A DNA stretch of 64,000 nucleotides from Deltaproteobacteria bacterium HGW-Deltaproteobacteria-2 (GCA_002840505.1 PHBC01000003.1:488899-552898); one strand, 5' to 3'. Counted from the stretch's first letter, positions 11,522 through 43,657 are shown. Numbers and translations: made by a program. The notes: generated from the letters alone by a model not told the origin.

Positions 11522-13060
11522 ATGACAACTGAAAACACCACTGGTCAGTACAGATTCTGGGGAGAGACAACCGCTTTTCTTGCCCTTTTTCTCGACAATG
11601 TCGGGACACTGATATTTTTCAGCGCTATCCTTGTCTTCACTTTCAACTATCCGGCAGATATTATCCTGACACGCATGATTCCCGGCACAGCCGTAGGAAT
11701 TTGCATAGGCGATCTTGTTTACACTTGGCTTGCGCTTCGTTTGAGAAAAAAAACAGGGCGTACCGATGTGACGGCGATGCCTCTGGGAATTGACACTCCT
11801 TCAACAATCGGCATTGCCTACGCCGTCATGGGCCCGGCTTATGTCGCCACACATGATGCGCAACTCACCTGGCACATCGGCATGGCCACTCTTTTTATGA
11901 TCGGCACGGTTAAAATAATCACTTCTTTTTTCGGCGGATGGGTTCAGCGCATCATTCCCACCGCGGGACTTTTGGGTCCACTGGCCGGAATCGGGCTTTT
12001 GCTACTCGGATTTCTGCCAATGATCGAACTATTTAACGAGGCCATTGTCGGCATGGTGGCGCTGGGGTTAATCTTTACAGCACTCATGAGCAAGATGCAA
12101 CTGCCGGGAAAGCTGCCCGGGGTTTTGGCGGCTGTAGTTCTTGGCACGGGCATTCATTTTGTACTGGGCTATGGTGGATACCTGCCGGAGTTTACCGCAC
12201 CAACACTGCAAATGACTTTTTCAATGCCTGCATTTTCCATTGATTTTATCAAAACGCTGCCGCACAGCATCCAGTATCTGACCATCGCTATTCCCTTCGG
12301 CATTCTGACGATCATCGGCGGTATCAACAATACGGAAAGTGCCCGTCTGGCCGGTGATGACTACCGCACCAGAGACATTCTGCTCACGGAGGCATTTTCA
12401 TCATTGATCGCGGCATTCTTCGGCGGAGTGGCACAAACTACGCCCTATATCGGCCATCCGGCATACAAAAAAATGGGCGCAACCTGGTGGTACACATTGC
12501 TGACCGGATTGCTGATAGGCATCTGCTCCGTGATTGGACTGCTTTCACTTTTTGTCAGTCTCATACCGCGGGCGGTTATCGCGCCTATTTTCATCTTTAT
12601 CGGTTTTGAAATCATGCGGCAGGCGTACAATGATTCGCCACCAAAACATTCTCCGGCGGTAAGTTTGAGTATCCTGCCCGTTATCGCCTCTCTTGTGCTG
12701 ATAATTCTAGGCCAGTTCATGGGAGCGATGGGTACCACACCGGATAAGCTTCCTGTGCGTTTGCAAACCATGCATCAAACACTGACGATGCTCAGCAACG
12801 GATTTATCATCACCGGGCTTCTCTGGGGAAGTATGCTGGCTTTTTTGATTGACCACCAAGCGCGGTTGGCAGCTCTTTGCGCCGCAGTCTGCGCCATACT
12901 CACACTCTTTGGCATAATCCATTCCATAATGCCGACCGGCGAATTGTATCTGCCATGGATGATTACATCACACACCCATTACATGACGGCTGCGGCGTAT
13001 TTTGCTCTTTCGGGCATCCTGCTTTTATTGACCGGAAAACAAAATGAATCAACGTTGTAA
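11522..13060 (+). CDS. NCS2-type nucleobase permease-like membrane protein
   Basis: The 512-residue protein has about 12 to 14 hydrophobic segments and the N-terminal pattern of AzgA/xanthine-uracil permease relatives: FLALFLDNVGTLIFFSAILV, then RKKTGRTDVTAMPLGIDTPS and a later GGINNTESARLAGDDYRTRDILL helix break followed by GGVAQTTPYIGHPAYKKMG. It probably moves a nucleobase or similar small solute by proton symport at the inner membrane. It is preceded by GAGGAG and stands alone. Substrate specificity cannot be set from the residues seen. Confidence 0.85.
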   Translation: MTTENTTGQYRFWGETTAFLALFLDNVGTLIFFSAILVFTFNYPADIILTRMIPGTAVGICIGDLVYTWLALRLRKKTGRTDVTAMPLGIDTPSTIGIAYAVMGPAYVATHDAQLTWHIGMATLFMIGTVKIITSFFGGWVQRIIPTAGLLGPLAGIGLLLLGFLPMIELFNEAIVGMVALGLIFTALMSKMQLPGKLPGVLAAVVLGTGIHFVLGYGGYLPEFTAPTLQMTFSMPAFSIDFIKTLPHSIQYLTIAIPFGILTIIGGINNTESARLAGDDYRTRDILLTEAFSSLIAAFFGGVAQTTPYIGHPAYKKMGATWWYTLLTGLLIGICSVIGLLSLFVSLIPRAVIAPIFIFIGFEIMRQAYNDSPPKHSPAVSLSILPVIASLVLIILGQFMGAMGTTPDKLPVRLQTMHQTLTMLSNGFIITGLLWGSMLAFLIDHQARLAALCAAVCAILTLFGIIHSIMPTGELYLPWMITSHTHYMTAAAYFALSGILLLLTGKQNESTL

Positions 13061-13075
13061 GTGGGCTATATTTCC

Positions 13076-13104
13076 TTGACATAAAAGTTCGGACTTCCTA
13101 TAGT
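13076..13104 (+). promoter_or_regulatory. sigma-70-like promoter for the exported-protein operon
   Basis: TTGACA (13076-13081) and TATAGT (13099-13104) are separated by exactly 17 bases, near consensus, and sit 54 bases before the first gene of a six-gene run of exported proteins. It is the best promoter in the window by eye. Confidence 0.65.
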
Positions 13105-13157
13105 TACACTCATGCCGATGCAACGCTTCGTCGGAAAAAACTACAAGGAGAAAAAAT

Positions 13158-13727
13158 ATGTCTTCAAAACATTATATTGGGGTATATTTGTTTGCACTTT
13201 GCTTTATCCTGATTTCTTCTATCTCCCATGCCGAACAAAGATCAACAGGCAACATTGGAATAATCAAACCAACCGTTGCTGCAGGTAAACAGGAATTAAA
13301 ACCTCTGCAACAAACTTTAATAGCAAGTCAATATGCAATGCCTAATATATATCAATTGCTACTTTTAACTATTGACAACGTGTATGCAGCAAAAAATGAA
13401 TTGCAAAGTGCCGTAGGCACAGGTTATTTACCCGCAGGTATTGATGATGAATTGCGCAGTTACTATAAGCCTCATATCAAGAATTGCCTGGCGAAAAGCT
13501 ATTCGGTTCAGGACCAGCAGGCTGCCGGCTGTGCCGGAACTGACACGGTCAACCACTGTATGGATAAATTATATAAATATTGCATTGGTTCTTATAAGGG
13601 AGGCAGCGGCAACAAGGAAAACTTTATAAAAAAATTTAAGACGGCACTTGAGCGTTCAAATGATATAAATGCGAAAAGCAAAAATTATTCCAACCAGTTG
13701 CAGACACTTTTGAATAATATGCCGTAA
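13158..13727 (+). CDS. exported Cys-containing protein, paralog A
   Basis: This 189-residue protein has a signal peptide ending near SHAEQ. The mature part opens with EQRSTGNIG...LKPLQQTL and contains a Cys module: NCLAKSYSVQDQQAAGC, then HCMDKLYKYC. The neighbouring gene at 13796 repeats the whole design (EQRAIGPKQ...IRPLQQPL; VQDQQNAGC; LCMEKVIKHC), so the two are tandem paralogs with little identity outside these motifs. The paired cysteines suggest disulfides in the periplasm or outside. I recognise no family. It is the first gene after a near-consensus promoter, with AAGGAG before the ATG. Confidence 0.75.
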   Translation: MSSKHYIGVYLFALCFILISSISHAEQRSTGNIGIIKPTVAAGKQELKPLQQTLIASQYAMPNIYQLLLLTIDNVYAAKNELQSAVGTGYLPAGIDDELRSYYKPHIKNCLAKSYSVQDQQAAGCAGTDTVNHCMDKLYKYCIGSYKGGSGNKENFIKKFKTALERSNDINAKSKNYSNQLQTLLNNMP

Positions 13728-13795
13728 AAAATGAGTCAACTATGCGTAAACAATAAGTACATTATCAAAATTGAAGATAAGGAGGATGCGAAAAG

Positions 13796-14389
13796 ATGAA
13801 AAAAATAAATGCTAAGGCAGGTGTTTTATTTTTCTTGATGCCCGTTCTATTTTTAAATTTACTTACTGCCTCCTCATATGCTGAACAACGGGCTATAGGA
13901 CCGAAACAAATTCAAAGCTCAGCTCCGGCAACCGGAACACAGGCCATCAGACCTTTGCAGCAACCTCTCATGCTACAAGGGTCATTGCCTCCTTTTGTCT
14001 GTTCTTCTACAGTTGGTGCGATAAACGATGTTATAAAAACAGCTCAAACGGAAGTGCCCACGGCGGTACAGGCATACACTAACCAGGGATTCGTTGATTT
14101 TCAGGGAACTTCGGAAAATACGGCAGGCATTTACAGAAACTATGTGCAGGACTGTTGCTCACCAAACAAAAGCTTTACGGTGCAGGACCAACAAAATGCG
14201 GGATGTTTGAATAGTGATAACGTAAAACTTTGCATGGAAAAGGTAATAAAACATTGCATCAGTCAATACCCGCAGAAGAACTCTCTTAAAGCCATGTTAT
14301 TTAATTCTCGGGACAAGGCTAATAAAGTCAGTGCCAAAACGAAACAGCTGCACGAAAATATAAACCGGCTATATGATATGATCCCGTAA
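13796..14389 (+). CDS. exported Cys-containing protein, paralog B
   Basis: This 197-residue paralog of the preceding gene has a signal peptide ending near SYAEQ. The mature protein has EQRAIGPKQI, IRPLQQPL and a C-terminal module with DCCSPNKSFTVQDQQNAGC and LCMEKVIKHC; an extra Cys pair (CC) replaces the single Cys of paralog A. AAGGAGG precedes the ATG. The retained motif order with diverged intervening sequence suggests an old duplication and different partners. The function is unknown; export and disulfide formation are inferred. Confidence 0.75.
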   Translation: MKKINAKAGVLFFLMPVLFLNLLTASSYAEQRAIGPKQIQSSAPATGTQAIRPLQQPLMLQGSLPPFVCSSTVGAINDVIKTAQTEVPTAVQAYTNQGFVDFQGTSENTAGIYRNYVQDCCSPNKSFTVQDQQNAGCLNSDNVKLCMEKVIKHCISQYPQKNSLKAMLFNSRDKANKVSAKTKQLHENINRLYDMIP

Positions 14390-14440
14390 TGCGGGATAAA
14401 AATAAGATCCACCTGATAAACGAAAGGAGGTAAAATAGAG

Positions 14441-14785
14441 ATGAAAAAATTCTTTGCGATGGTAGGTGTTTTGTTTTTCCTGGTATCAGTATTATTTTTC
14501 GTTCCGTGCAAAGGTTTTGCGATTAATCCGCAACCGGAACCACCCGGTGATAAAGCTAAATCCATCATTGTCGTTAATGAGTCCTACATAGGAACAATCA
14601 TAAAAATTGAAGGCAACAAGATTACAGTCCGCAATGAAACAGGAATGGAAAAAATAATCACAGGAAATTTCACCGGCCTAAAAATCGGCGGCAAGGTAAA
14701 GGTAACGACAAGAGACGGCCGGACATGGCTCAACCCTCAGCCCGAACCGCCACTGCCTGCCAAGGCAAAACCTTTAACCAAATAA
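14441..14785 (+). CDS. small exported protein with NPQPEPP motifs and OB-like core
   Basis: This 114-residue protein has a signal peptide (LFFLVSVLFFVPCKGFA) and two copies of the motif NPQPEPP: one immediately after the cleavage site (INPQPEPPG) and one near the C-terminus (LNPQPEPPL). Between them lies a small beta-rich domain (YIGTIIKIEGNKITVRNETG ... KVTTRDGRTW) resembling DUF5666-type OB folds. NPQPEPP peptides recur in exported proteins of related anaerobes, but their role is not known to me. An excellent GGAGG site precedes the ATG. Same strand as, and close to, its neighbours. Confidence 0.75.
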   Translation: MKKFFAMVGVLFFLVSVLFFVPCKGFAINPQPEPPGDKAKSIIVVNESYIGTIIKIEGNKITVRNETGMEKIITGNFTGLKIGGKVKVTTRDGRTWLNPQPEPPLPAKAKPLTK

Positions 14786-14842
14786 GGTTTAGCTTTTTTA
14801 AATAAGTTTAATTTTTAATTACATTATGGGGGATATTGCCTG

Positions 14843-16876
14843 ATGGCCCAAAAGTTAATGAATTGGTTTTGTGTCATTTTCGTTATTATATGCTTCCTCA
14901 CGCCGGCTTTTGCTTTGGCAGAGGAATGCATCGTTGTCACCTCCCCCATTGAAAACACCGTGATTATTGGAAAGCGCCCGGAAGTCAAAGGTGTCTTTCG
15001 CTGTACCCTGACTCCCGGATCGTATGTTGTCATGCTCGATGGAGTCGATGTAACACAGCTCATGGATGTAACCGCTGAAGGATTTACTTACCGGCCAGAA
15101 ATGCTCGTAACTACGGGTAGTCACTCGCTGTCCGTCAGTTATACGGGCGCGGACAATTTGCCGCATCAATTTGCCGTTAATTTCAGCATCCGCCATTCGG
15201 AAAAGTTCGGCGAAATTTACTCCAAGAATGATGTATCTCTTCTATACGAAGGCGCACTGGTAAGAAAAGACAGCGCAGCCGATGCAGCCGCACCGATATA
15301 TACGGAAGGTCAAAACGTTGCCCCTTCAACAACGGCAACTTATCCAAGCTCTAAAATCGAAGGAAATCTGGCATCGGAAAGCAGGGTAAAAGAAGGGCCG
15401 TGGAATGTCGCTTTCACAACTAATGTGCGATACTTCGATCAGGATATCCCTGTAATGGATCCGTTGAAAAAAGGGCTTACCGTTGCCAACTGGCTGTTCA
15501 CAGGTAACTACGAAAAGGATCGTGTCAAAATGAAGCTCAGCGCGGGGGATGTCATGATAAATGAAACCCCGTATACGATATCCGGTTTTTCCAGAAAAGG
15601 AACCATGTTCAATGGTGAAGCTGGTCCGGTTTATGCCAATGTTTTCAGCGCCCGCAGTGCACAGACCTTCGGCGTCGACGGCGGTATCGGCATCGGCGAT
15701 GTGAGTGAAGATCACATATTCGGCGCCTCCGCCGGCGTCAAGCTTTTTGAAAATAAAGTTGATGTCCGGACAATTTATGTGACCGGAACAGATCCGTCTG
15801 CGGCGGGACTTCCCGCTTCCATAACGCCGCCATCCGAACAGCCAAATGTATACGGAAACTCAACAACCACAGGAAACAAACAAGGAGATGTCGTTGGTTT
15901 TCTGCTGACTACAGATTTTTTACAGAATCGTCTCAGGACGGAGATGGAGGCCGACTTTACGCGATACGATCCGGATATCGCCGATGAGTTTGACAAAAGA
16001 AGCTCCTCCGCCTACAGGGCTAAAATTGGCGGCGCCATCAACTGGTTTACTTATGATGCGTTATACGAATATATCGGGAAATACTACGGTGTCGTCGGGA
16101 ATCCTTCGCTGGCAAAAGACAGACAGGGCTTCAGTCTGCAAAGCGGCATCAACCTGTCAGATCAGAATCTCAATGTTATGGCATCCCGCTATTCGGATAA
16201 CGTCGATTCGGATCCTCTCTTTCCGGAAATCGTCAGCACCCAGGGAAGCATCTCTTATCAGTTCAACAAGATTCCCTACGTTCCTATGGGATTAACATAT
16301 CAAAAAATTATTCAGGAAAGCTCAAAGGAACCCGTTGGCAGTACGCGTATGGATATGAACACCGATACCTATTCGGCCAGAATTGGTTTCACTAAGGGCA
16401 GCTTTACGGTCAATTTTGCGCCGTCTTATTCGCTAATCAACGACAAGACACCAGCGGATGCTGATATGACAAACATTTCTTATGCCGCAACGGCGGCCTA
16501 CGCCCTGCCTAATCTTTCCATTGCTCCGGCATTCTCCTGGACTAAAACACGTAATCATGCAACGAATGTCTGGACAGACACCTTTGTCTATAATCTCGAC
16601 TTTCGCTCACGCTTTTTCCACGACAGAATCTCCTTTGACGCCGGCGGCACTTATACGGCATCAACAGCGGATAACAATTCTGTGGACAGTGGAACTTGGA
16701 ACGCGCGGGCAGCCGTATCTTACCGGCTCAATGATCACCTGAAAACATTTGTCAAACCTGCGGTGGGATTGCGTTTGAGCTATCTGAAAACGGACGATAA
16801 AATAAATGCGGGAATGGATAAAGACGAATTTAGTTTGTTTGTTGTTCTGGAAGCAGCAATGCCCATTATATTTTAA
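14843..16876 (+). CDS. predicted outer-membrane beta-barrel protein
   Basis: The 677-residue protein has a signal peptide (VIFVIICFLTPAFALAE), an N-terminal Ig-like domain of about 100 residues (IVVTSPIENTVIIG, ... SHSLSVSYTG), and then a long series of alternating amphipathic strands (FTTNVRYFDQDIP, FSLQSGINLSDQNLNVMASR, SFTVNFAPSYSLI). It ends in MPIIF: a C-terminal Phe is the typical recognition signal for the BAM machinery. It is probably an outer-membrane channel or anchor for the surrounding exported proteins. No named family is recognised. The start has only a weak GGGGG site; an ATG 18 bases downstream is the alternative. Confidence 0.75.
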   Translation: MAQKLMNWFCVIFVIICFLTPAFALAEECIVVTSPIENTVIIGKRPEVKGVFRCTLTPGSYVVMLDGVDVTQLMDVTAEGFTYRPEMLVTTGSHSLSVSYTGADNLPHQFAVNFSIRHSEKFGEIYSKNDVSLLYEGALVRKDSAADAAAPIYTEGQNVAPSTTATYPSSKIEGNLASESRVKEGPWNVAFTTNVRYFDQDIPVMDPLKKGLTVANWLFTGNYEKDRVKMKLSAGDVMINETPYTISGFSRKGTMFNGEAGPVYANVFSARSAQTFGVDGGIGIGDVSEDHIFGASAGVKLFENKVDVRTIYVTGTDPSAAGLPASITPPSEQPNVYGNSTTTGNKQGDVVGFLLTTDFLQNRLRTEMEADFTRYDPDIADEFDKRSSSAYRAKIGGAINWFTYDALYEYIGKYYGVVGNPSLAKDRQGFSLQSGINLSDQNLNVMASRYSDNVDSDPLFPEIVSTQGSISYQFNKIPYVPMGLTYQKIIQESSKEPVGSTRMDMNTDTYSARIGFTKGSFTVNFAPSYSLINDKTPADADMTNISYAATAAYALPNLSIAPAFSWTKTRNHATNVWTDTFVYNLDFRSRFFHDRISFDAGGTYTASTADNNSVDSGTWNARAAVSYRLNDHLKTFVKPAVGLRLSYLKTDDKINAGMDKDEFSLFVVLEAAMPIIF

Positions 16877-16890
16877 ACGGAGGAATTTTT

Positions 16891-17973
16891 ATGAAAAAAC
16901 TTATCTTAGCCCTTCTTGTCTTGATACTGACCGGACTCCTCGCTCCCTCTTTTTCTCAGGCAACCGTTATTGTAATACCTTCTTCCGTTAATGTTGTCCG
17001 GGGTCAGAGCAATACAGTTGTATTTACCTATCAATTTTCCGGCTATGTCATAGGAACCGGCACTCTGACTTCAAGCCAGGGCATATTCTTCACTCCTGAT
17101 ACCACTATCGGATATAATAATCTGCCCCTGACAGTAACGATCAGCGGCACTGTCGGAACGATTTCAGAAACCGTTGTTATTCCCGTGAATATTATGGAGA
17201 AGGCGCTGCAAAGGGGTACAGCACAATTCTTTTACCGGCGAGTTTTTACGGGCATGATAGGCACGGATACGGCAACAATCAATCTCACTGTTACGGGAGA
17301 AGCAGGAGGAACGCTGGGCATAAGACGCATTTCAGTATATTTCGGAAACGGCAGGGCCGAAACTACCGTAATGAAATATGCAAGCGATTTAAAGGCCTAT
17401 GCGGATATCAGATACAATGGTTCCGGCCTTTTGAAAGGCTATTGGGAAGTTGACGGCCGGCTTCTGTCATACGTCAGCCAACCTCTGCCCGCCGGTCAGC
17501 AAATTACTTTGGCCACACCGGACATTCCGGCGCTGCCAACCTTTGAAACCGGGACGCACACGTTGCGCTTTGTCATAACCAACCCTGAACCAGGCCAGGG
17601 GATTCCTTTGCCAGTTCTGGTATATTTCGTAACAACAGATGAAGCTGCCGTAAAACAAGCCGGATTGACTTTAAAAGCTCCCGCCGAAGCAGCAGAAGTA
17701 CCTTATGCATCGCTGAAATACGAATGGCAGTTAATCCGCGCAGAAGTTTACCTGATTCAGTTTTTTGAAGCACTGGAAACAAAACGTGTTTTTTCCGCTT
17801 ACACAAAAAAAGGTTTCTATCAGCTACCGCAGCTGGTACTTAAAAAGAATTTTGAACCCGGAAAATCTTACTATTGGCGAATTACGGCCTTTGATAAGGA
17901 ACGTCGTAAAATAGGCGAAAGCAAAACCGGTAGTTTCCGTTTTTCGTCGACTGCCGCAAACGCCGGCAAATAA
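16891..17973 (+). CDS. exported Ig-like/Fn3-like protein of unknown function
   Basis: This 360-residue protein has a signal peptide cleaved near SFSQA. The N-terminal part (about residues 25-100) is an Ig-like domain (VIVIPSSVNVVRGQSNTVVF), the middle is unassigned beta structure, and the C-terminal 80 residues resemble an Fn3-type domain ending YYWRITAFDKERRKIGES. GGAGG lies ten bases before the ATG and only 14 bases separate it from the barrel gene, so coupling is likely. It could be a periplasmic or surface partner of the barrel; this is inference. Confidence 0.7.
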   Translation: MKKLILALLVLILTGLLAPSFSQATVIVIPSSVNVVRGQSNTVVFTYQFSGYVIGTGTLTSSQGIFFTPDTTIGYNNLPLTVTISGTVGTISETVVIPVNIMEKALQRGTAQFFYRRVFTGMIGTDTATINLTVTGEAGGTLGIRRISVYFGNGRAETTVMKYASDLKAYADIRYNGSGLLKGYWEVDGRLLSYVSQPLPAGQQITLATPDIPALPTFETGTHTLRFVITNPEPGQGIPLPVLVYFVTTDEAAVKQAGLTLKAPAEAAEVPYASLKYEWQLIRAEVYLIQFFEALETKRVFSAYTKKGFYQLPQLVLKKNFEPGKSYYWRITAFDKERRKIGESKTGSFRFSSTAANAGK

Positions 17974-18009
17974 CGAGATAAAAACATAAATCAAGAGGAG
18001 TAACAAAGA

Positions 18010-19971
18010 ATGAAAAATAAAAACTATATCATTATTTTAATCATGGCCGTTATAGTGACTGTCTGGTCAGTTAGTCAAATGACACAAATAACATGGGCGG
18101 TCGAACCGGCGACTCCTCTTGTGAGCACTTACGGAATCGTAGACAGCACTTCGACCACAGCCAACCTTAAGGGAACTTACAGACCATATAAACTCCAGAT
18201 AGACAATGCTTACTTTGAATACGGCACGAGTACAAGCTACGGATCCCAGATATCGCCGTACAGGGAATGCAAAGTAACCGCTTCGGGCGAAGTCTGTGAA
18301 GCCACCGGCCAGATTACCAATCTTACACCGCAGCAGACTTACCATGTCCGTCTTGTCGTCAAATACTACGACAATGTGTGGAAAAAATGGTCTTTGGCAT
18401 ACGGCGAAGACAGGACATTCTCCACGCATATTCCCCCCAAAGCAACGACAAACGAGGCGACGGATGTTACCTCCACCTCGGCAGTGCTCCACGGAACGGC
18501 AAATCCCAATGGCAACAGCACCGATGCCTATTTCCGTTACATGCCATATTGTGTCATGTGCAATCCTTCCGGAATTGCTGTCGGTCAGAACATCGGTTCA
18601 GGCAACAGCCCGGTAACGCTGAACATCAAAGTTACCGGATTGACACCGGGAACCAGATACATGTATCGTCTGCGCGCATCCAACCAGCAGGGAGGAGAAT
18701 CATTAGGCGAATATAAAATGTTTTTCACACCATCCAAACCGACTGTAAAAACATTTGACGCATCCGACATTAAAACGCATGGGGCAACACTCAGAGGTAC
18801 AGTCAATCCTTCCGGACTCGACACAATGTACTACTTTGAATATGGAGAAACCGCATCCTACGGAATAAAGAAATCCCAGGTTTACGCCGGAAAAGGCAGC
18901 GATGTTGTGTCTGCTTCACTACCATTGACGAATAGCTTCTCTCCGGGCAAGCTTTATCACTATCGGATTGTGGCAAGCAATACACTGGGCGTAAGCTACG
19001 GTGAAGACAAAACCTTTACCACAGAAAAACTCATTGCACCTACCGCCACAACCGGAGGCGCAACGGACATAACCCTGAGCACCGCTACGCTTAACGGCGT
19101 AGTCAATCCGCATAACGACCAAACTATGTGGCACTTTGAATACCGGAAAGCCGGTGCAGAATGGAAAAAGACGGACAATGTCGGCGTCGCTGTGGCAAAC
19201 GACTGGAATATCACTGCCAAAATTTTCAGTCTGGACGCAGACACCACATATTCTTATAAACTCGTTGCCGTAAATGGCGCCGGAACAACAACAGGTGAGG
19301 AAAAAACATTTAAGACAGTGGCGGTTGCCCTTCCTACGGTGACTACGGGCGGTGTAAAGAACATAACCAAATCATCCGCGACCCTCATGGGAACAATCAA
19401 TCCAAATGATACGCCGACATCTTACTGGTTCTGGTACGGAATATCACCGCAAAATATGTACCATACACCAGGTCAGGTAGGATTGACGGGAAAGAATGAT
19501 ATACAGGTTTCCGCAGACCTCATCAGCCTGGCTCCCAATACAACTTATTATTATCGACTCTCGGCAAACAACGTAAAAGGAGCTGTTCAGGGGGAGAATA
19601 AAACATTCAATACAGCAGCAATAACCAAAGCGCCCATCGTTATTACAGGCCACTCAAGGAATGTTACGGCTTCGTCAGCCACCATCGGAGGAACGGTTAA
19701 TCCGAACGGAATGGCTACCTCATATTATTTTGAGTATGGTATTTCCCCGGCCTTTGGGGGCAAGGTTCCTTTGACGCCGCAATCGGCGGGCAGCGGGACA
19801 AGCGCCGTTAACGTTACAACTCCTCTGGCGGGATTGAATGCAAACACGACCTATTATTACCGGCTTGTTGCAGTCAACAGCGACGGAACCAGCAATGGGG
19901 CAAATATGACTTTCAAGACGGCATCCGGCATGTTAATCAAAGTACCGACTTCGCCGGCAATACGCAAATAA
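18010..19971 (+). CDS. exported protein with six Fn3-like repeats
   Basis: The 653-residue protein has a signal peptide followed by six tandem repeats of roughly 90 to 105 residues. Each begins A-T-x-x-A-T-D-(I/V)-T-x-x-(S/T)-A-T-L-x-G-x-x-N-P, contains (Y/W)-x-F-x-Y-G in the middle and ends T-Y-x-Y-R-L-x-A-x-N-x-x-G-x-x-x-G-E-x-K-T-F. This is a fibronectin-type-III-like solenoid common in extracellular adhesins and wall-associated enzymes. There is no catalytic domain or visible C-terminal sorting motif. GAGGAG precedes the ATG. As the last and largest member of the run it may be the exposed component. Confidence 0.8.
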   Translation: MKNKNYIIILIMAVIVTVWSVSQMTQITWAVEPATPLVSTYGIVDSTSTTANLKGTYRPYKLQIDNAYFEYGTSTSYGSQISPYRECKVTASGEVCEATGQITNLTPQQTYHVRLVVKYYDNVWKKWSLAYGEDRTFSTHIPPKATTNEATDVTSTSAVLHGTANPNGNSTDAYFRYMPYCVMCNPSGIAVGQNIGSGNSPVTLNIKVTGLTPGTRYMYRLRASNQQGGESLGEYKMFFTPSKPTVKTFDASDIKTHGATLRGTVNPSGLDTMYYFEYGETASYGIKKSQVYAGKGSDVVSASLPLTNSFSPGKLYHYRIVASNTLGVSYGEDKTFTTEKLIAPTATTGGATDITLSTATLNGVVNPHNDQTMWHFEYRKAGAEWKKTDNVGVAVANDWNITAKIFSLDADTTYSYKLVAVNGAGTTTGEEKTFKTVAVALPTVTTGGVKNITKSSATLMGTINPNDTPTSYWFWYGISPQNMYHTPGQVGLTGKNDIQVSADLISLAPNTTYYYRLSANNVKGAVQGENKTFNTAAITKAPIVITGHSRNVTASSATIGGTVNPNGMATSYYFEYGISPAFGGKVPLTPQSAGSGTSAVNVTTPLAGLNANTTYYYRLVAVNSDGTSNGANMTFKTASGMLIKVPTSPAIRK

Positions 19972-20035: not shown

Positions 20036-20072
20036 AAAAAGACCCCTGAAAAAAATTCAGAGGTCTTTTTTT
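20036..20072. terminator. bidirectional terminator
   Basis: A 15-bp stem (AAAAAGACCCCTGAA with TTCAGAGGTCTTTTT, one mismatch) is flanked by A and T tracts on both sides. It separates the exported-protein operon from the convergent gene at 20094. A perfect 18-bp palindrome (GTTTCTTAATTAAGAAAC, 19988-20005) lies just before it. Confidence 0.75.
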
Positions 20073-20093
20073 ATATACTTTTACTGATTAAGA

Positions 20094-20717
20094 TTACTGC
20101 GTAGAAACCGTCATCTCAAATGTCTGAGATAAAAGATTGTTGGTCGTATTGCAATCAAGAGACTTCGGCTGACTTGATGTTCCAAGAAGACCTTTTGCAT
20201 CGCGAACAAAAAATTCAAACAGTAGTTTTACTTGTTTTTCGTTTGGCTTGGGAGCAGCAATGGGTGGTTTGAAACCCCACTGAAGAACTTTATCCCGCGT
20301 ATATGTTTGTGTAAAGGACATGCACTGATTACTATTTAAAACCGGCCCTACTGTCTGCGTGAAAAATTTTGTTTCACCGGAAGCCGGATAACTGAACTGC
20401 GGACCATATCCGGTATATACATTAAAATGCGCTTCCAGATTGTTGCCGGGCTGATTATAATTGCCGGGCCCACTGTTGCATACCTGGCCGGTCATGGTAA
20501 ATGTCGCAACATTGCCGGATAACGTTTTTGTGACATTGAAATTTCTTACAGTTGGGTCTTTGCAAATTTCCAGAGTGGTTACAGGCGGCTGAATTGTCTT
20601 CATGTCTTTGACAGTGCTCGGCACTGTTTTTCTGTCTACCGCAAAAGAGACAGATGAAAAAACAATAAGAAGAATTGCTGTTAGAAGTACAGATAAGACT
20701 TTACTTTTTTGTTTCAT
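20094..20717 (-). CDS. exported protein of unknown function (CARDB-like beta domain)
   Basis: This 207-residue protein has a signal peptide ending near SVSFA. The mature part has a beta-sandwich pattern (VRNFNVTKTLSGNVATFTM, CNSGPGNYNQPGNNLEAHF, VKLLFEFFV) like CARDB or BACON-type domains, with four cysteines that could form disulfides. GGAGGG six bases upstream fixes the start at 20717; an earlier in-frame ATG four codons upstream overlaps that site. It converges on the exported-protein operon and its composition fits the same compartment, but nothing shows that it works with it. Confidence 0.65.
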   Translation of the reverse strand: MKQKSKVLSVLLTAILLIVFSSVSFAVDRKTVPSTVKDMKTIQPPVTTLEICKDPTVRNFNVTKTLSGNVATFTMTGQVCNSGPGNYNQPGNNLEAHFNVYTGYGPQFSYPASGETKFFTQTVGPVLNSNQCMSFTQTYTRDKVLQWGFKPPIAAPKPNEKQVKLLFEFFVRDAKGLLGTSSQPKSLDCNTTNNLLSQTFEMTVSTQ

Positions 20718-20930
20718 TTTACCCTCCATAACTCATTGAGATTTTACAAGGAGGCAAACATTCTTTTTAGTAAGATATTGCTTTCTTGTAGGTTAAATAC
20801 AGTTTGATCTTTGTCTAATGGGAACTTGCTTTTTGCGTAAGAAGTATAGAAAGGCGGTTTTCGTTTGTCAATTTATATTTTGGATCGAAAAGAAACAGCC
20901 GGCTATGTTATAGTTTAGCATATCCGGGTT

Positions 20931-24402: not shown

Positions 24403-27400
24403 TTACTTCACCCCCTTCTTCACAACATTAGCCATGAAAGCTTTGCTCTCCGGTATCATGGTGTTGGCATCACCGATGGTCGGCGTCAAAAGGTTGGCCG
24501 CATCGCCGGTGGTGAATACTTCAGCTTTCTTGTCGCCGGGATCGTATTTTCGGTCTTTGGTTGTAATCCAACCGAAATGCCAAGGTATGCCGATTTCATG
24601 GATTTCATTGCCATCAATATTAAAAGGCTTAAAGCGAGGGGTAACAATGGCCGTACACTCCACCTCGCCCCGCGCTGAACTTACAGTACATTTATCACCG
24701 GCTTTAATATTTCTCTGTTTAGCCAATTCTTCGCTTATTTCTACGAACATACCGGGCTGCATTTCCGCCAGCCATGGACACCAGCGGGTGAGAACACCCG
24801 TCTGCCAGTGCTCGCTGACTCGGTAAGTCGAACAAATGAAGGGGAAGCGAGGATCGCAGGTTCCGACGCCGGAATACACATCCATATCGGATCCGACGCC
24901 TTTCTTATCAAACCGTTTAATGGCCGGATTATTTTTCTGCGGAGACATTAAATTTCTTTCTACGGGGCATTCCAACGGTTCGTAATGCTCGGGGAAAGGA
25001 CCATCAGCCAAGCCCGGACCATAAATACTCGCCACGCCATCCGGCTTCATAATAAACGGCGGCCTGCCTTTGCCGGGATTGCCGACACCGTCAGGAACAT
25101 CACCCTTCCATTTTTCTTCTTTCGCATCCCACGTGATAACAGCTCGGCTGGAATCCCAGGGCTTGCCGCTCGGATCAACGGAAGCTCCGTTGTAAATGAT
25201 GCGGCGATTCAGAGGCCAGCACCAGGCCCATTCGGAATAAAGTCCCAGACCTGTTGGATCGGCCTGTCCGCGGCGCATGGGCAGAATTCCTTTTTCCTTG
25301 TCTACGGAACCGCAATAGACCCAGCAACCTGATGAAGTGGAACCGTCATTCTGCAACCAGGCAAAAGTGGGAACCAAATCACCTTTCTTGAATTCCTTGA
25401 ACTCGCCCTTCTTGGTCGGATTTTCTATCTTTTTGTCTTCCAGGAAGTAGCCATTGATTTCTTTGGCCACCGTACGCGGTTCATATACGAATTCATGGCC
25501 GACATGCTTTCCATAAGGCCAGGTCAGTTTTGTTACGGCCACTGCATTAGGACCGCCCTGTTTTGAATAAAGGTTTCTTACCTTGAAGAAAAGTTCGCTC
25601 ATGATATCGCCGTCAGGTTTGGAATCCCCATAAAACGGGATGGCTTTATAACGCCACTGCTGCAGACGTCCGCTGTTGGCGATACTGCCTTCTTTCTCAA
25701 CGGAGGAAGCGCAGGGCAGCATGAAAACTTCGGTCTTGATTTTGGTCGGATCCATTCCCGGGCCGCGCCAGAATGAGCCGGTTTCGTTATCAAAAAGATT
25801 GACGTTGACCATCCAATCCACTTTACCAAGAGCCTGACGCACTTTGTTGGAATGAGCGCCGCTGCATGCGGGATTCATACCCCAGGCAAAGAAACCGGTG
25901 AATTTATTCTTGTACATCTGATCGAAAATCTGCAACCATGAATAATTCACGCCATCATCAACTTTGGGTAGTGAATTATAAGCCTCGTCGAGAGTCATAT
26001 TCGTTCCATACATGGAACGCAGGAAACTGGCGACATATTTAGGCTTATTCTTCCACCAGTTAAGAGAGTCTTTTTCTTTTGTTTTGGGCGTCTGTTTATC
26101 ATTATAGGTTGCCAGATCCTTCAGAGAACCTGTCGGAGTGTTCAGATAGCCGGGCCAGATGTGGAAGAGCAGACCATGGTCAGTGGAACCCTGAACGTTG
26201 GATTCGCCGCGCATTGCCGCAATACCGCCGCCCGCGATACCCATATTACCCAGAAGCAACTGAATAATGCACATCGTTCTGATGTTCTGCACGCCTACTG
26301 TATGCTGTGTCCAACCCATCGCGTAGAGTTCAACTCCCGCTTTGTTAGGCTTGCCGGTTGAACCATAAAGTTTGTAAACTTCAGTTAGTTTATCTTTGGG
26401 TGTTCCGGTAATCCGGGAAACAAGTTCCGGAGTATAACGGGAATAGTGTTTCTTCAAAAGCTGGAAAACACAATTGGGATCTTTGAGTGTTTTGTCTTTC
26501 TTGATCACACCGTCGGCATCCAACTGATAACCCCAGGTATCTTTTTCATACTTGCCGTCTTTCAGGCCGGAAAAAACACCGTTATTTTGTCCTGGAAGTT
26601 TCATCGCCGGATTAACCAGGAATGATGCGTTGGTGTAATTAAGAACATACTCAAGATGAAAGAGTTGTTTGTCTAAAATATATTTAATCATGCCGCCCAG
26701 GAAAGCGATATCGGTTCCTGAACGAAGAGGAGCATAAAGGTGCGCTTTGGATGCTGATTGCGTGAAGCGGGGATCAACGCAGATTATCTTTGCTCCGCGC
26801 TTATCAACAGCTTCCTGAATCCATTTGAATGATACAGGGTGATTGGAAGCCGGATTGCTTCCCATAATCAAAATTACGTCACTGTTTTTAAAATCATTCC
26901 AGTGATTGGTCATTGCGCCGCGTCCGAACGACTCTGCCAGAGCCGGTACAGTTGGACTGTGTCAGATACGGGCCTGATGTTCAATATAGACCAGACCCAA
27001 CCCCCTTAAGAATTTTTGGTACGTGTAGCATTCTTCAAGATCCATTGCCGCGCTTCCGACAGAAGCAATGCCTTCAGTGCGATTAACAACTTCGCCTTTT
27101 TCGTTTTTTACCTTGAAGCTGGCATCACGGCTTTTCTTGATGTTTTTGGCAATCTTATCTAACGCCCATTCCCATTCGACTTCTTTCCATTCCTTGGCGA
27201 AAGGCGCCCTGTAAAGAGGTTTACCTAAACGGTTTTCATTGACGGCCATCTGGTAGATCGAACCGCCTTTACTGCACAGGGCTCCCCTGTTAATGGGACT
27301 ATCAGGATCACCTTCTGTGTTGATAACCTTGCCGTCACGTACGGATACTATGATGCTGCATCCCACGGAACAATACGGACAAACGGTGGTGGTTTCTTTA

Positions 27401-27519
27401 GCATATTTGATTTTCAGTTCCTGAGCGTGCGCTGATATGGGCTTAAGACTAATCCCCAAACCACTGACCGCCGCAATAGCACCGGAAATCTTCAAGAAAC
27501 CTCTTCGGCTGACGTTCAT
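24403..27519 (-). CDS. fdnG: formate dehydrogenase, catalytic selenoprotein subunit (alpha)
   Basis: One gene of 1038 residues is read through an in-frame TGA at 26962-26964 as selenocysteine 186. The sequence around it (ARI-U-HSPTVPALAESFGRGAMTN) matches the active-site region of FdnG/FdoG. The N-terminus has a twin-arginine signal (SRRGFLK), so the enzyme is exported folded with its cofactor. The 4Fe-4S motif CPYCSVGC and the downstream bis-MGD domains follow. It oxidises formate to CO2 on the outer face of the membrane, or the reverse. AAAGGAG precedes the ATG. It is divergent from fdhD, whose product sulfurates the Mo/W site. Annotation software usually splits this gene in two at the TGA. 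Confidence 0.95.
26962..26964 (-). other. selenocysteine TGA codon in fdnG
   Basis: The TGA is followed in the same frame by a long conserved formate dehydrogenase sequence and is placed exactly where Sec occurs in homologs (V/I-U-H-x-P). The bases just after it can form a short hairpin around CCGGCTCTGG, in the position expected for a bacterial SECIS, but I have not folded it. selA, selB and selC are not in the window. Confidence 0.9.
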
Positions 27520-40573: not shown

Positions 40574-43270
40574 TTATGCGGCTTCCAGTTTTACCGCGCA
40601 AACCTTGTATTCCGGAATTTTTCCTATCGGGTCAAGAGCCGGATTGGTCAGCAGGTTCACGGATGCGTCCGCGAAATGGAAGTTCATGAAAATCGAACCA
40701 GGAGCGCTCTTCTTCGTGATGCTTGCTTTGGCTTCAACCGTGCCGCGTCGGGAGGTAACTTTGACTTTCTGGCCTTCGGCAATTTTCAGTTTATCGGCAT
40801 CTACCGGATTTATTTCCACAAGACTTTCAGGATAACGCTCAGAAAGACCTATCGAGCGGGTGGTCATGGTGCCGGTGTGGTAATGATACAGGACGCGTCC
40901 GGTGGAAAGCAGTAACGGATATTGTTTGTCCGGCATTTCATTGGGCGGTATGAATTCAATGGCGGTGAATAATCCCAGACCGCGTGAGAATTTATCCTTG
41001 TGCAGGAACTTGGTTCCCTGATGTTCCGGAGTGGGACAAGGCCACTGTATGCCGCCTTTTTCCAGACGCTCGTAAGAGATTCCCGCATAGCTGGGTGTGA
41101 CTTTCGCCACTTCTTCAAAAATCTCTTTGGCGGAAGCATATTTCATCGCGTAACCCATTTTATTGGAGATGCCGCAGATGACCTCCCAGTCGGTTTTGGC
41201 TTCACCCGGAGCTTCAACAGCTTTGCGCACGCGCTGTACGCGGCGTTCAGTGTTGCTGAACGTTCCTTCTTTTTCGGCAAAGCTGGCTACCGGCAGAACA
41301 ACGTCGGCCAACTGAGCTGTTTCCGTCATAAATAAATCCTGGACAACCATCAAATCCAGTTTTTGAAGTTCTTTTTTCACATGCTGCAAATCAGGATCGG
41401 AAAGCATGGGATTTTCGCCCATGATGTAAATCGCTTTAATCGTCCCTTTGCCGGCCGCTTCCATCATTTCCATGATGGTCAATCCCGGTTTGGGAGAAAG
41501 CTGTGCGTTCCAGGTTGCTTCAAATTTCTTGCGAATATCTTCATTAGCGACCTGCTGATAGGCCGGATAAACATTGGGCAGACCGCCCATGTCGCAGGCG
41601 CCCTGAACATTATTCTGGCCGCGTAAAGGATTCACACCGCCGCCTTCGATACCGACATTGCCGCAAAGCATGGAAAGATTGGCCATGCTCTTGACGTTGT
41701 CCGTGCCGCTGATGTGCTGGGTAATGCCCATGGCGTAAAGAATGCTGGCTCTGTTGGCCTGCGCATACATTCTGGCGGCTTTCTTTAAATCTTCCGCGGG
41801 CACGCCGGAAATCTTTTCGACCTTTTCCGGTGTGTATTTTTCGACCATCTTTTTGAGCGCGTCGAATCCTTCGGTTCTGTCTTTCACATATTCTTTGGCA
41901 TAAAGATCTTCGGCGATAATGACATTCATCAAACCGTTGATAACGGCGACATCGGTTCCGGGATTCTGACGGAGCCAGATATCGGCGTATTTGACCAGAT
42001 CGATTTCGCGGGGATCAATCACGATCAGCTTTGTGCCGCGCTTGGTAGCCCGCTTAACCTTGGCACCGATGACCGGATGATTTTCCGTAGTATTGGTTCC
42101 TGTTGCCAGAATCAGGTCTGTGAATTCAATTTCGTCAATAGAATTAGTCATTGCACCGCTGCCGAATGTGGCGGCCAGACCGGCCACCGTGACAGAGTGT
42201 CAAAGCCGGGCACAGTGATCGACATTGTTGGTGCCGATTGCCGCCCGCATGAATTTCTGAAACAGGTAATTTTCTTCATTGGTGCAACGGGCCGAAGACA
42301 GACCGGCGATACTGTCTGCACCGTTCTCTTTTTTAATTTTGGAAAGCTTATCAGCGATAAACGTAAAGGCTTCATCCCAGGTAGCTTCCGTGAAGTCTTC
42401 ATTTTTCTTATAGCGAATCAAAGGTTTTTTCAGACGATCGGGATGAGCAACGAAATCCATACCGAAACGTCCCTTAACACAAAGGCTTCCCTGATTTGGC
42501 GAGCCGTATTCGCGATTGCCCATGACCTTCACGATTTTATTATCCTTGGTAAAAAGATCCATCTGACAGCCGACACCGCAATAGGTGCAGGTGGTGCGGA
42601 CTTTGTTTAGTTCCCAGGGACGGCCGGCAAATTTTGCCTGTTTGAACGTGATGGCTCCGGTGGGGCAAACCTGCGCGCACTCGCCGCAGAATACACAGGA
42701 AGAATTGATGTAATCATCATCAAATGCCGGCCCAACCTTGGCTTCCGAACTGCGCATAGAGAAATCCAGCACTTCATTGACCTGAATTTCATTGCAGGCG
42801 CGAACGCAACGTCCGCACAGGATGCATTTGTTCAGATCGCGCTGAATCATTGTATTGCTGTTATCCATTGTATAACCAGGGGCTTTAATCTCAAAGCGGG
42901 GTTGATCAATCTTTAACCAGTAAACCAGATTCTGTAATTCACATTGCCCGTTTTGTTCGCAGCTAAGGCAATTATGGTCGCCTGATGACCAGAGCAATTC
43001 AATAATCATTTTCTGGGCAGCGCGAACTGCCGAAGTATTGGTGCGAATTACCATATTGGGACTCACCGGCATGCAACATGAAGCAACCAAACTTCGGGCA
43101 TTTTCGACTTCCACAACGCAAACACGGCATGCCCCGACGTTGGTTGTGTTCTGGTAATGACAAAGGGTAGGAATGAAAATACCGTTATCGCGGGCGCATT
43201 CCAAAATAGTTTGACCGGCGGTCACTTCAACATCTTTTCCATCAATTTTAATAGGTACCTTTTTCTCCAT
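40574..43270 (-). CDS. fdhA: formate dehydrogenase, NuoG-like N-terminus, selenoprotein catalytic subunit
   Basis: One gene of about 898 residues is read through TGA at 42200-42202 as selenocysteine 357 (ARL-U-HSVTVAGLAATFGSGAMTN). The N-terminal 200 residues resemble NuoG: a 2Fe-2S domain (CHYQNTTNVGACRVC), CLSCEQNGQCELQN, and two 4Fe-4S motifs (CILCGRCVRACN, CVFCGECAQVCP). The Mo/W domain begins at CTYCGVGC. There is no signal peptide, so it is cytoplasmic and probably works with a NuoEF-like or hydrogenase partner, which is not adjacent here. GGAG lies before the ATG at 43270; a TTG four codons upstream is less likely. The C-terminus is VCAVKLEAA. Confidence 0.93.
42200..42202 (-). other. 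selenocysteine TGA codon in fdhA
   Basis: The stop-like TGA is flanked in frame by conserved formate dehydrogenase sequence on both sides and aligns with the active-site Sec. A SECIS hairpin is expected in the bases after it; I did not fold it. Confidence 0.9.
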
Positions 43271-43657
43271 GTTATTCTCCAATCTTCAATAATCAATACT
43301 CTTATTTAAAAGAGTTTTATTTTTATTAAGTGTGGATTTCATAGCGGGAAGCGACTATATTGTCAATTCTGTCAATTATGGCCTATGTCATATTTAGCAT
43401 AAACCAAACAGACAAAACCATCAACATTTCATTAATATACTGAAGTGCTGAGGGTAAAGTATGACCTAAATAATTTTGGAATCACGGGCGTGAAACCCCA
43501 AAGCAAGCTTTGGGAAAACAATCCTCACAAACTGCGGGTATCCCTAAATCCCCCCTCCCTCGATACTGCCCGGCGAATGCCGGGGGAGGTATCCAGGCGG
43601 TGACAAGCTACATAGAATTACAAATTAAATACTTTAGATAATTGACCAGGGACTGAG

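Follow-up and report, generated by a model that had tools for sequence, protein, structure and literature searches.

Routes for export across the outer membrane are few and are mostly named after model pathogens. Among the described barrels, FhaC has 16 strands, the autotransporter barrel 12, the FimD/PapC usher 24 and MtrB 26. The gene pair described below, D and E, has features in common with several of these systems. In type Vb two-partner secretion (PMC5422565), as in this pair, a barrel gene accompanies the gene of an exported partner. Type Va includes subtilase autotransporters, and in relatives of D-E the partner likewise bears a subtilase. Chaperone-usher systems of the FimD/PapC type likewise combine a wide barrel with Ig-fold partners. 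The porin-cytochrome conduits of the MtrB/PioB type (PMC6831781 and PMC4245776) also contain a 26-strand barrel. Finally, the TonB-dependent transducers of ECF signalling share with the protease-bearing form of D-E a barrel, a periplasmic N-terminal domain and a sigma/anti-sigma pair (PMC11637429).

The analysed window is a stretch of 64,000 nucleotides from Deltaproteobacteria bacterium HGW-Deltaproteobacteria-2 (PHBC01000003.1:488899-552898). An earlier note, made from the sequence alone, had described in it a six-gene operon of exported proteins, and this description was borne out. Six consecutive ORFs on the plus strand (A to F, 13158-19971) encode exported-type proteins, six out of six with a signal-peptide-like N-terminus, and they are framed by a near-consensus promoter and a strong terminator (Table 1). 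The intergenic gaps are, in order, 68, 51, 57, 14 and 36 nt. Every start has a Shine-Dalgarno-like run rich in G, such as AGGAG, on its 5' side. Five promoter-grade sites (11/12 or as good) occur in the 64 kb when both strands are counted, and the chance of one such site falling within the 97 nt leader is p about 0.004. The terminator is placed between convergent genes and can therefore serve both of them. No match was returned by PADLOC for A-F.

Table 1. Features of the A-F operon and the convergent gene G (positions within the window).
Feature	Position	Strand	Basis or remark
Sigma-70-type promoter, TTGACA-17-TATAGT	13076..13104	+	11/12 consensus
A: exported Cys-containing protein, 189 aa, paralogue of B	13158..13727	+	ORF, signal-like N-terminus
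B: exported Cys-containing protein, 197 aa	13796..14389	+	ORF; paralogue of A
C: small exported protein, two NPQPEPP motifs around small beta domain	14441..14785	+	
D: outer-membrane barrel, N-terminal Ig domain, C-terminal Phe	14843..16876	+	AlphaFold2, Foldseek
E: exported partner, three Ig-like domains, constant LLxGYWEVDG domain, no protease	16891..17973	+	AlphaFold2
F: exported protein, six Fn3-like repeats	18010..19971	+	Pfam fn3 and related; repeats by sequence reading
Intrinsic terminator, hairpin about 20036-20070 then T run	20036..20077	.	RNA fold -15.5 kcal/mol, z -5.87
G: convergent exported protein	20094..20729	-	co-occurs with D-E in genus

The protein encoded from position 14843 (D) had been predicted to be a barrel ending in Phe, and structure prediction with AlphaFold2 supported this (pLDDT 82.8, pTM 0.66). 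In the model, an Ig domain at residues 30-117 precedes 26 barrel strands at residues 124-676. The barrel loops alternate between long and short, so that by the usual topology the termini and the Ig domain of D would lie on the periplasmic side. The Foldseek matches were to outer-membrane barrels of various kinds. Among those listed, MtrB had the best TM score (6r2q_B, 0.43/0.44) and FimD (3rfz) the best E-value, with a TM score of only 0.35. These matches amount to membership of neither family. No Pfam or NCBIfam family covered D, and the D profile had no sequence match in the PDB, so that for D the claim of the earlier note that no known system could be matched was upheld. One D member gave a weak Pfam Autotransporter match (E-value 0.003). 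A search for plasmid carriage of D gave no match.

The surface loops of barrels usually vary. Across the D family, 25 of 281 positions were invariant at the extracellular end, which was assigned from the model plus the usual barrel topology, versus 2 of 165 at the periplasmic end (p 0.0007). Asp makes up 11-12% of the extracellular end, but only about 3% of the periplasmic third of each strand. Such constant acidic extracellular loops suggest that a fixed partner or Ca2+ may be present there.

The reading of E as an Ig-like protein was supported by its AlphaFold2 model (pLDDT 86.5), which contains three Ig-like domains with the LLxGYWEVDG motif in the middle one. Foldseek retrieved only generic Ig chains (TM about 0.2), and nothing meaningful was found in the PDB by sequence search with the E profile. 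A lipobox was present in none of 41 E members, and no outer-membrane sorting signal was recognisable. Relatives of E have additional He_PIG/PKD repeats. Among 26 members of greater or variable length that were scanned, 15 end in a Peptidase_S8 domain (Pfam); the Asp-His-Ser triad motifs were all present by pattern in 13 E members. The S8 domain of one relative matched only generic subtilase/IetS models in PADLOC. The E of the window has no S8 domain, its chain stopping after the third Ig-like domain. The constant domain of E was also encountered as a stand-alone single-domain gene (L023 6312-7058; L049 4725-5519; L054 9860-10684; L022 3291-4022). Some of these genes adjoin D-E, and two of them (L049 and L054) have no D nearby.

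D and E differ from each of the systems named above. Type Vb secretion uses POTRA domains and a 16-strand TpsB barrel, whereas D combines 26 strands with an Ig domain at its N-terminus; Pfam scans found neither POTRA nor a ShlB/FhaC family in D. The three Ig-like domains of E stand in place of the beta-helix of TpsA, the two do not share a sequence family, and no TPS domain was found in E by Pfam. Membership of two-partner secretion was rejected for these reasons (no POTRA, 26 strands, no TPS domain or beta-helix), and membership of the autotransporters was rejected because D and E are separate genes at every locus read. Compared with the FimD/PapC usher, D has a low structural similarity and 26 instead of 24 strands, and the operon contains no PapD-type chaperone or pilin genes. 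Since A-F matched no Usher or PapD family in Pfam or NCBIfam, this membership was rejected as well. Unlike the MtrB/PioB conduits, D-E has no cytochromes and no sequence match, and an Ig domain takes the place of the conduit partners. With no multihaem cytochrome partner and no family or PDB sequence match for D, it was not counted among them. D-E likewise departs from the TonB-dependent transducers in having no TonB-dependent receptor or plug family and, in its short form, no sigma pair.

The distribution of the genes set the D-E pair apart from the rest of the operon. An E-profile scan of GTDB contigs yielded 38 loci in Desulfobacterota, Nitrospirota, Campylobacterota and others, the phylum names being record labels, which can be wrong for bins. 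One carrier, Desulfocicer vacuolatum DSM 3385 (L041), is culturable. Of the 32 loci holding upstream DNA, 30 had D immediately 5' of E, and 27 pairs were 4-20 nt apart; the two exceptions (L049 and L054) were solo E-core genes in one bin. Order- and class-wide searches with D retrieved few relatives; when 395 genomes of the phylum were searched, 16 contained matches of the full-length type. In every readable D neighbourhood an E-domain gene was next or nearby, even for divergent D (E-value about 1e-60), with L115, L120 and L121 left out of this reading as their D ORF was not parsed. The weaker D matches in G332, G355 and G377 were other barrels, and the two of their neighbourhoods that were read contained no E neighbour. 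The distances of D and E were correlated (r 0.92, 30 pairs, Mantel p 0.0005), a figure to which shared descent contributes. Within the genus, D was found in four of 17 genomes. It forms two lineages there, which share about 41-43% and occupy different sites, and the pair is therefore patchy. The D tree departs from the phyla, although bins and paralogues limit what that proves.

Exported Ig, Kre9 or Fn3 proteins are encoded beside D-E at many loci. Exported proteins with short tandem repeats (e.g., KSREFxNIDF) directly follow D-E at L027 (12222-12722), L036 (12229-12735) and L018 (5940-6431), and are possibly fibre or cargo. A giant exported protein of about 1800-2000 aa was observed in the D-E loci L035 (60-7945), L053 (3-7621) and L040 (1476-9613). 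These Nitrospirota and Sulfuricurvum loci have in common both the giant protein and an Fn3 protein other than F that adjoins D-E; the giant protein, the Fn3 protein and D-E possibly belong to a larger module.

The protease-bearing loci were distinguished by their regulatory genes. ECF sigma and anti-sigma genes were present at nine of nine protease-bearing loci and at none of 12 protease-free ones (Fisher 3.4e-6), the count being restricted to loci whose upstream DNA spans some 1.5 kb or more, which leaves out L116. The pair precedes D-E in the protease-bearing loci, and the window represents the protease-free form without it. Related loci are not independent, so a test on the D tree is fairer than Fisher's; it gave three independent supported contrasts between sigma and protease, all of them agreeing. 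The sigma-protease link from tree contrasts is suggestive only. The same tree implies five or more changes of the protease trait.

The genes around D-E were as the earlier note had read them individually. A and B are tandem paralogues (28% identity, 3e-24) with the common module VQDQQxAGC...CMxK....C, C bears NPQPEPP close to each terminus, and six Fn3-like repeats can be read in the sequence of F, in agreement with Pfam fn3. The six genes as one co-conserved system were not borne out: the conserved unit is D plus E, and the others are rare or unlinked. A/B-like genes were present in four of 154 genomes of the class, two of which hold D-E, and A had no significant Pfam or NCBIfam family. An orthologue of F adjoins D-E in a single other locus (L019), and F is absent from the 16 other genus genomes. 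Among the 17 genomes of the genus, C and G were both found in exactly the four that have D-E (G000, G014, G139 and G145); in two of these, they are not linked to the pair. The chance of the C and G sets matching the D-E set exactly is about 1 in 2380 if the genomes are independent, which they are not. In the permease tree the D-E genomes were neither shown nor rejected as a clade (AU p 0.084); non-monophyly is not supported, and the co-occurrence of C and G with D-E could hence reflect descent.

C is the sole gene in its genome with the DNA-encoded NPQPEPP motif, of which the literature searched makes no mention. DNA matches to the motif in L068 and L071 fall outside C-like genes and were discounted. 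A shorter second C-like gene (G139:C7:10093-10284; L164 1534-1773) has DPQPEPP at its end, and the motif family is thus variable. Membership of C in ExtJ (NCBIfam NF040942) was rejected, as its score of 25.1 bits is far below the curated cutoff of 52.5 bits. In A, B, G and many exported neighbours of D-E, the signal peptide gives way to a stretch rich in Pro and Lys (e.g., KPLQQP, KTIQPP), which could serve as a linker or as an export cue common to these proteins.

In the window, A-F is flanked by an NCS2 permease gene, which ends at 13060, and by G. In G139, the permease gene and G converge with 105 bp between them and no A-F. In G014, a lipocalin gene begins 26 bp after the permease, and neither A-F nor G is found at that junction; the permease junction of G053 is likewise short. 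The short junctions in relatives indicate that the ~7 kb of A-F came or went as a unit, by gain in this genome or by loss in the others. A-F behaves as a single ~7 kb cassette at an otherwise conserved junction.

We read D-E as a two-partner outer-membrane display or export module, with a probability of roughly one half. According to this proposal, Sec would export both proteins, and D would form a wide barrel in the outer membrane, its Ig domain facing the periplasm. E would dock on D, or pass through it, via its constant domain, and would then be held or released at the cell surface; the contact, the location and the direction of transport are those that we infer from the models and gene order. 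The cargo of E would vary by extra Ig/PKD repeats and, in many species, by a C-terminal subtilase presumed to act at the surface, this form being encoded beside the ECF sigma/anti-sigma switch. Here, in a Smithella-type syntroph, E would represent a short scaffold form, co-expressed with A, B, C and F from a housekeeping-type promoter, and these four would probably be clients or components of a common surface layer. The secretion or surface-display apparatus of the earlier note is thus retained in part: the gene content fits (a barrel, exported Ig/Fn3 proteins and a subtilase in relatives), but not as a six-gene system. The roles that the note assigned, with the barrel as anchor, the Fn3 protein as stalk and the Cys proteins as partners, would be putative.

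A bolder proposal, which we advance tentatively and consider rather doubtful, is that D-E constitutes an unnamed secretion or display system in which a 26-strand barrel would export or anchor Ig chains, with an ECF-controlled subtilase form, spread across anaerobe phyla by transfer. Its parts are of known kinds (barrels, Ig chains, subtilases and ECF switches). The D family and the D-E pairing are unnamed in the libraries and literature searched, a coverage that most subscription journals fall outside, and no paper on Smithella surface proteins was found in the same literature. If true, the proposal would give a new handle on surface building in syntrophic and sulfur-cycling bacteria. D-E also opens two large families of so far hypothetical proteins to clear tests.

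Other explanations of the same genes were weighed. By analogy with SusC/SusD, D may serve as a large channel for uptake or exchange, with E as an accessory (a lid or binding protein) in the periplasm or at the surface. A 26-strand barrel with conserved extracellular loops, the two-gene pairing and an Ig-fold accessory would suit such a channel. However, D matched no TonB-dependent receptor or plug family, the lipobox is lacking throughout the 41 E members, transport or catabolic genes do not recur beside D-E, and the protease cargo would be left unexplained; we consider the channel unlikely. The subtilase form might instead be an envelope stress or surface-signalling module, its barrel and protease acting on or reporting to the ECF anti-sigma. 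The sigma pair before D-E at all nine testable protease loci and at none of the 12 testable others speaks for it, but simple operon autoregulation also fits this adjacency. Signalling cannot be the common function, because the window and all testable protease-free loci are without the sigma pair, and even for the subtilase form we hold it to be improbable.

We judge equally improbable a loose set in which unrelated envelope genes happen to share one promoter. The rarity of A, B and F near D-E elsewhere would be in line with a loose set, but A-F is present or absent as a block between the permease and G or lipocalin genes, D and E are paired, and C and G co-occur with them. Least credible, and in our estimate very improbable, is that D is the MtrB-like sheath of an electron conduit with A, B and C as redox or structural partners. 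MtrB gave the top TM score listed and C matched ExtJ weakly, but the former is below 0.5 and the latter far under its cutoff. The conduit is disfavoured by the lack of haem motifs: CXXCH is absent from A-F, and at least three CXXCH motifs were found in only two of the 604 proteins of the fetched loci, both at the divergent-D loci L120 and L124.

Elsewhere in the window, two formate dehydrogenase genes on the minus strand (24403-27519 and 40574-43282) are each split by one in-frame TGA. The TGA context, AR(I/L)-TGA-HS, is that of the usual selenocysteine site, and both genes probably encode intact selenoproteins.
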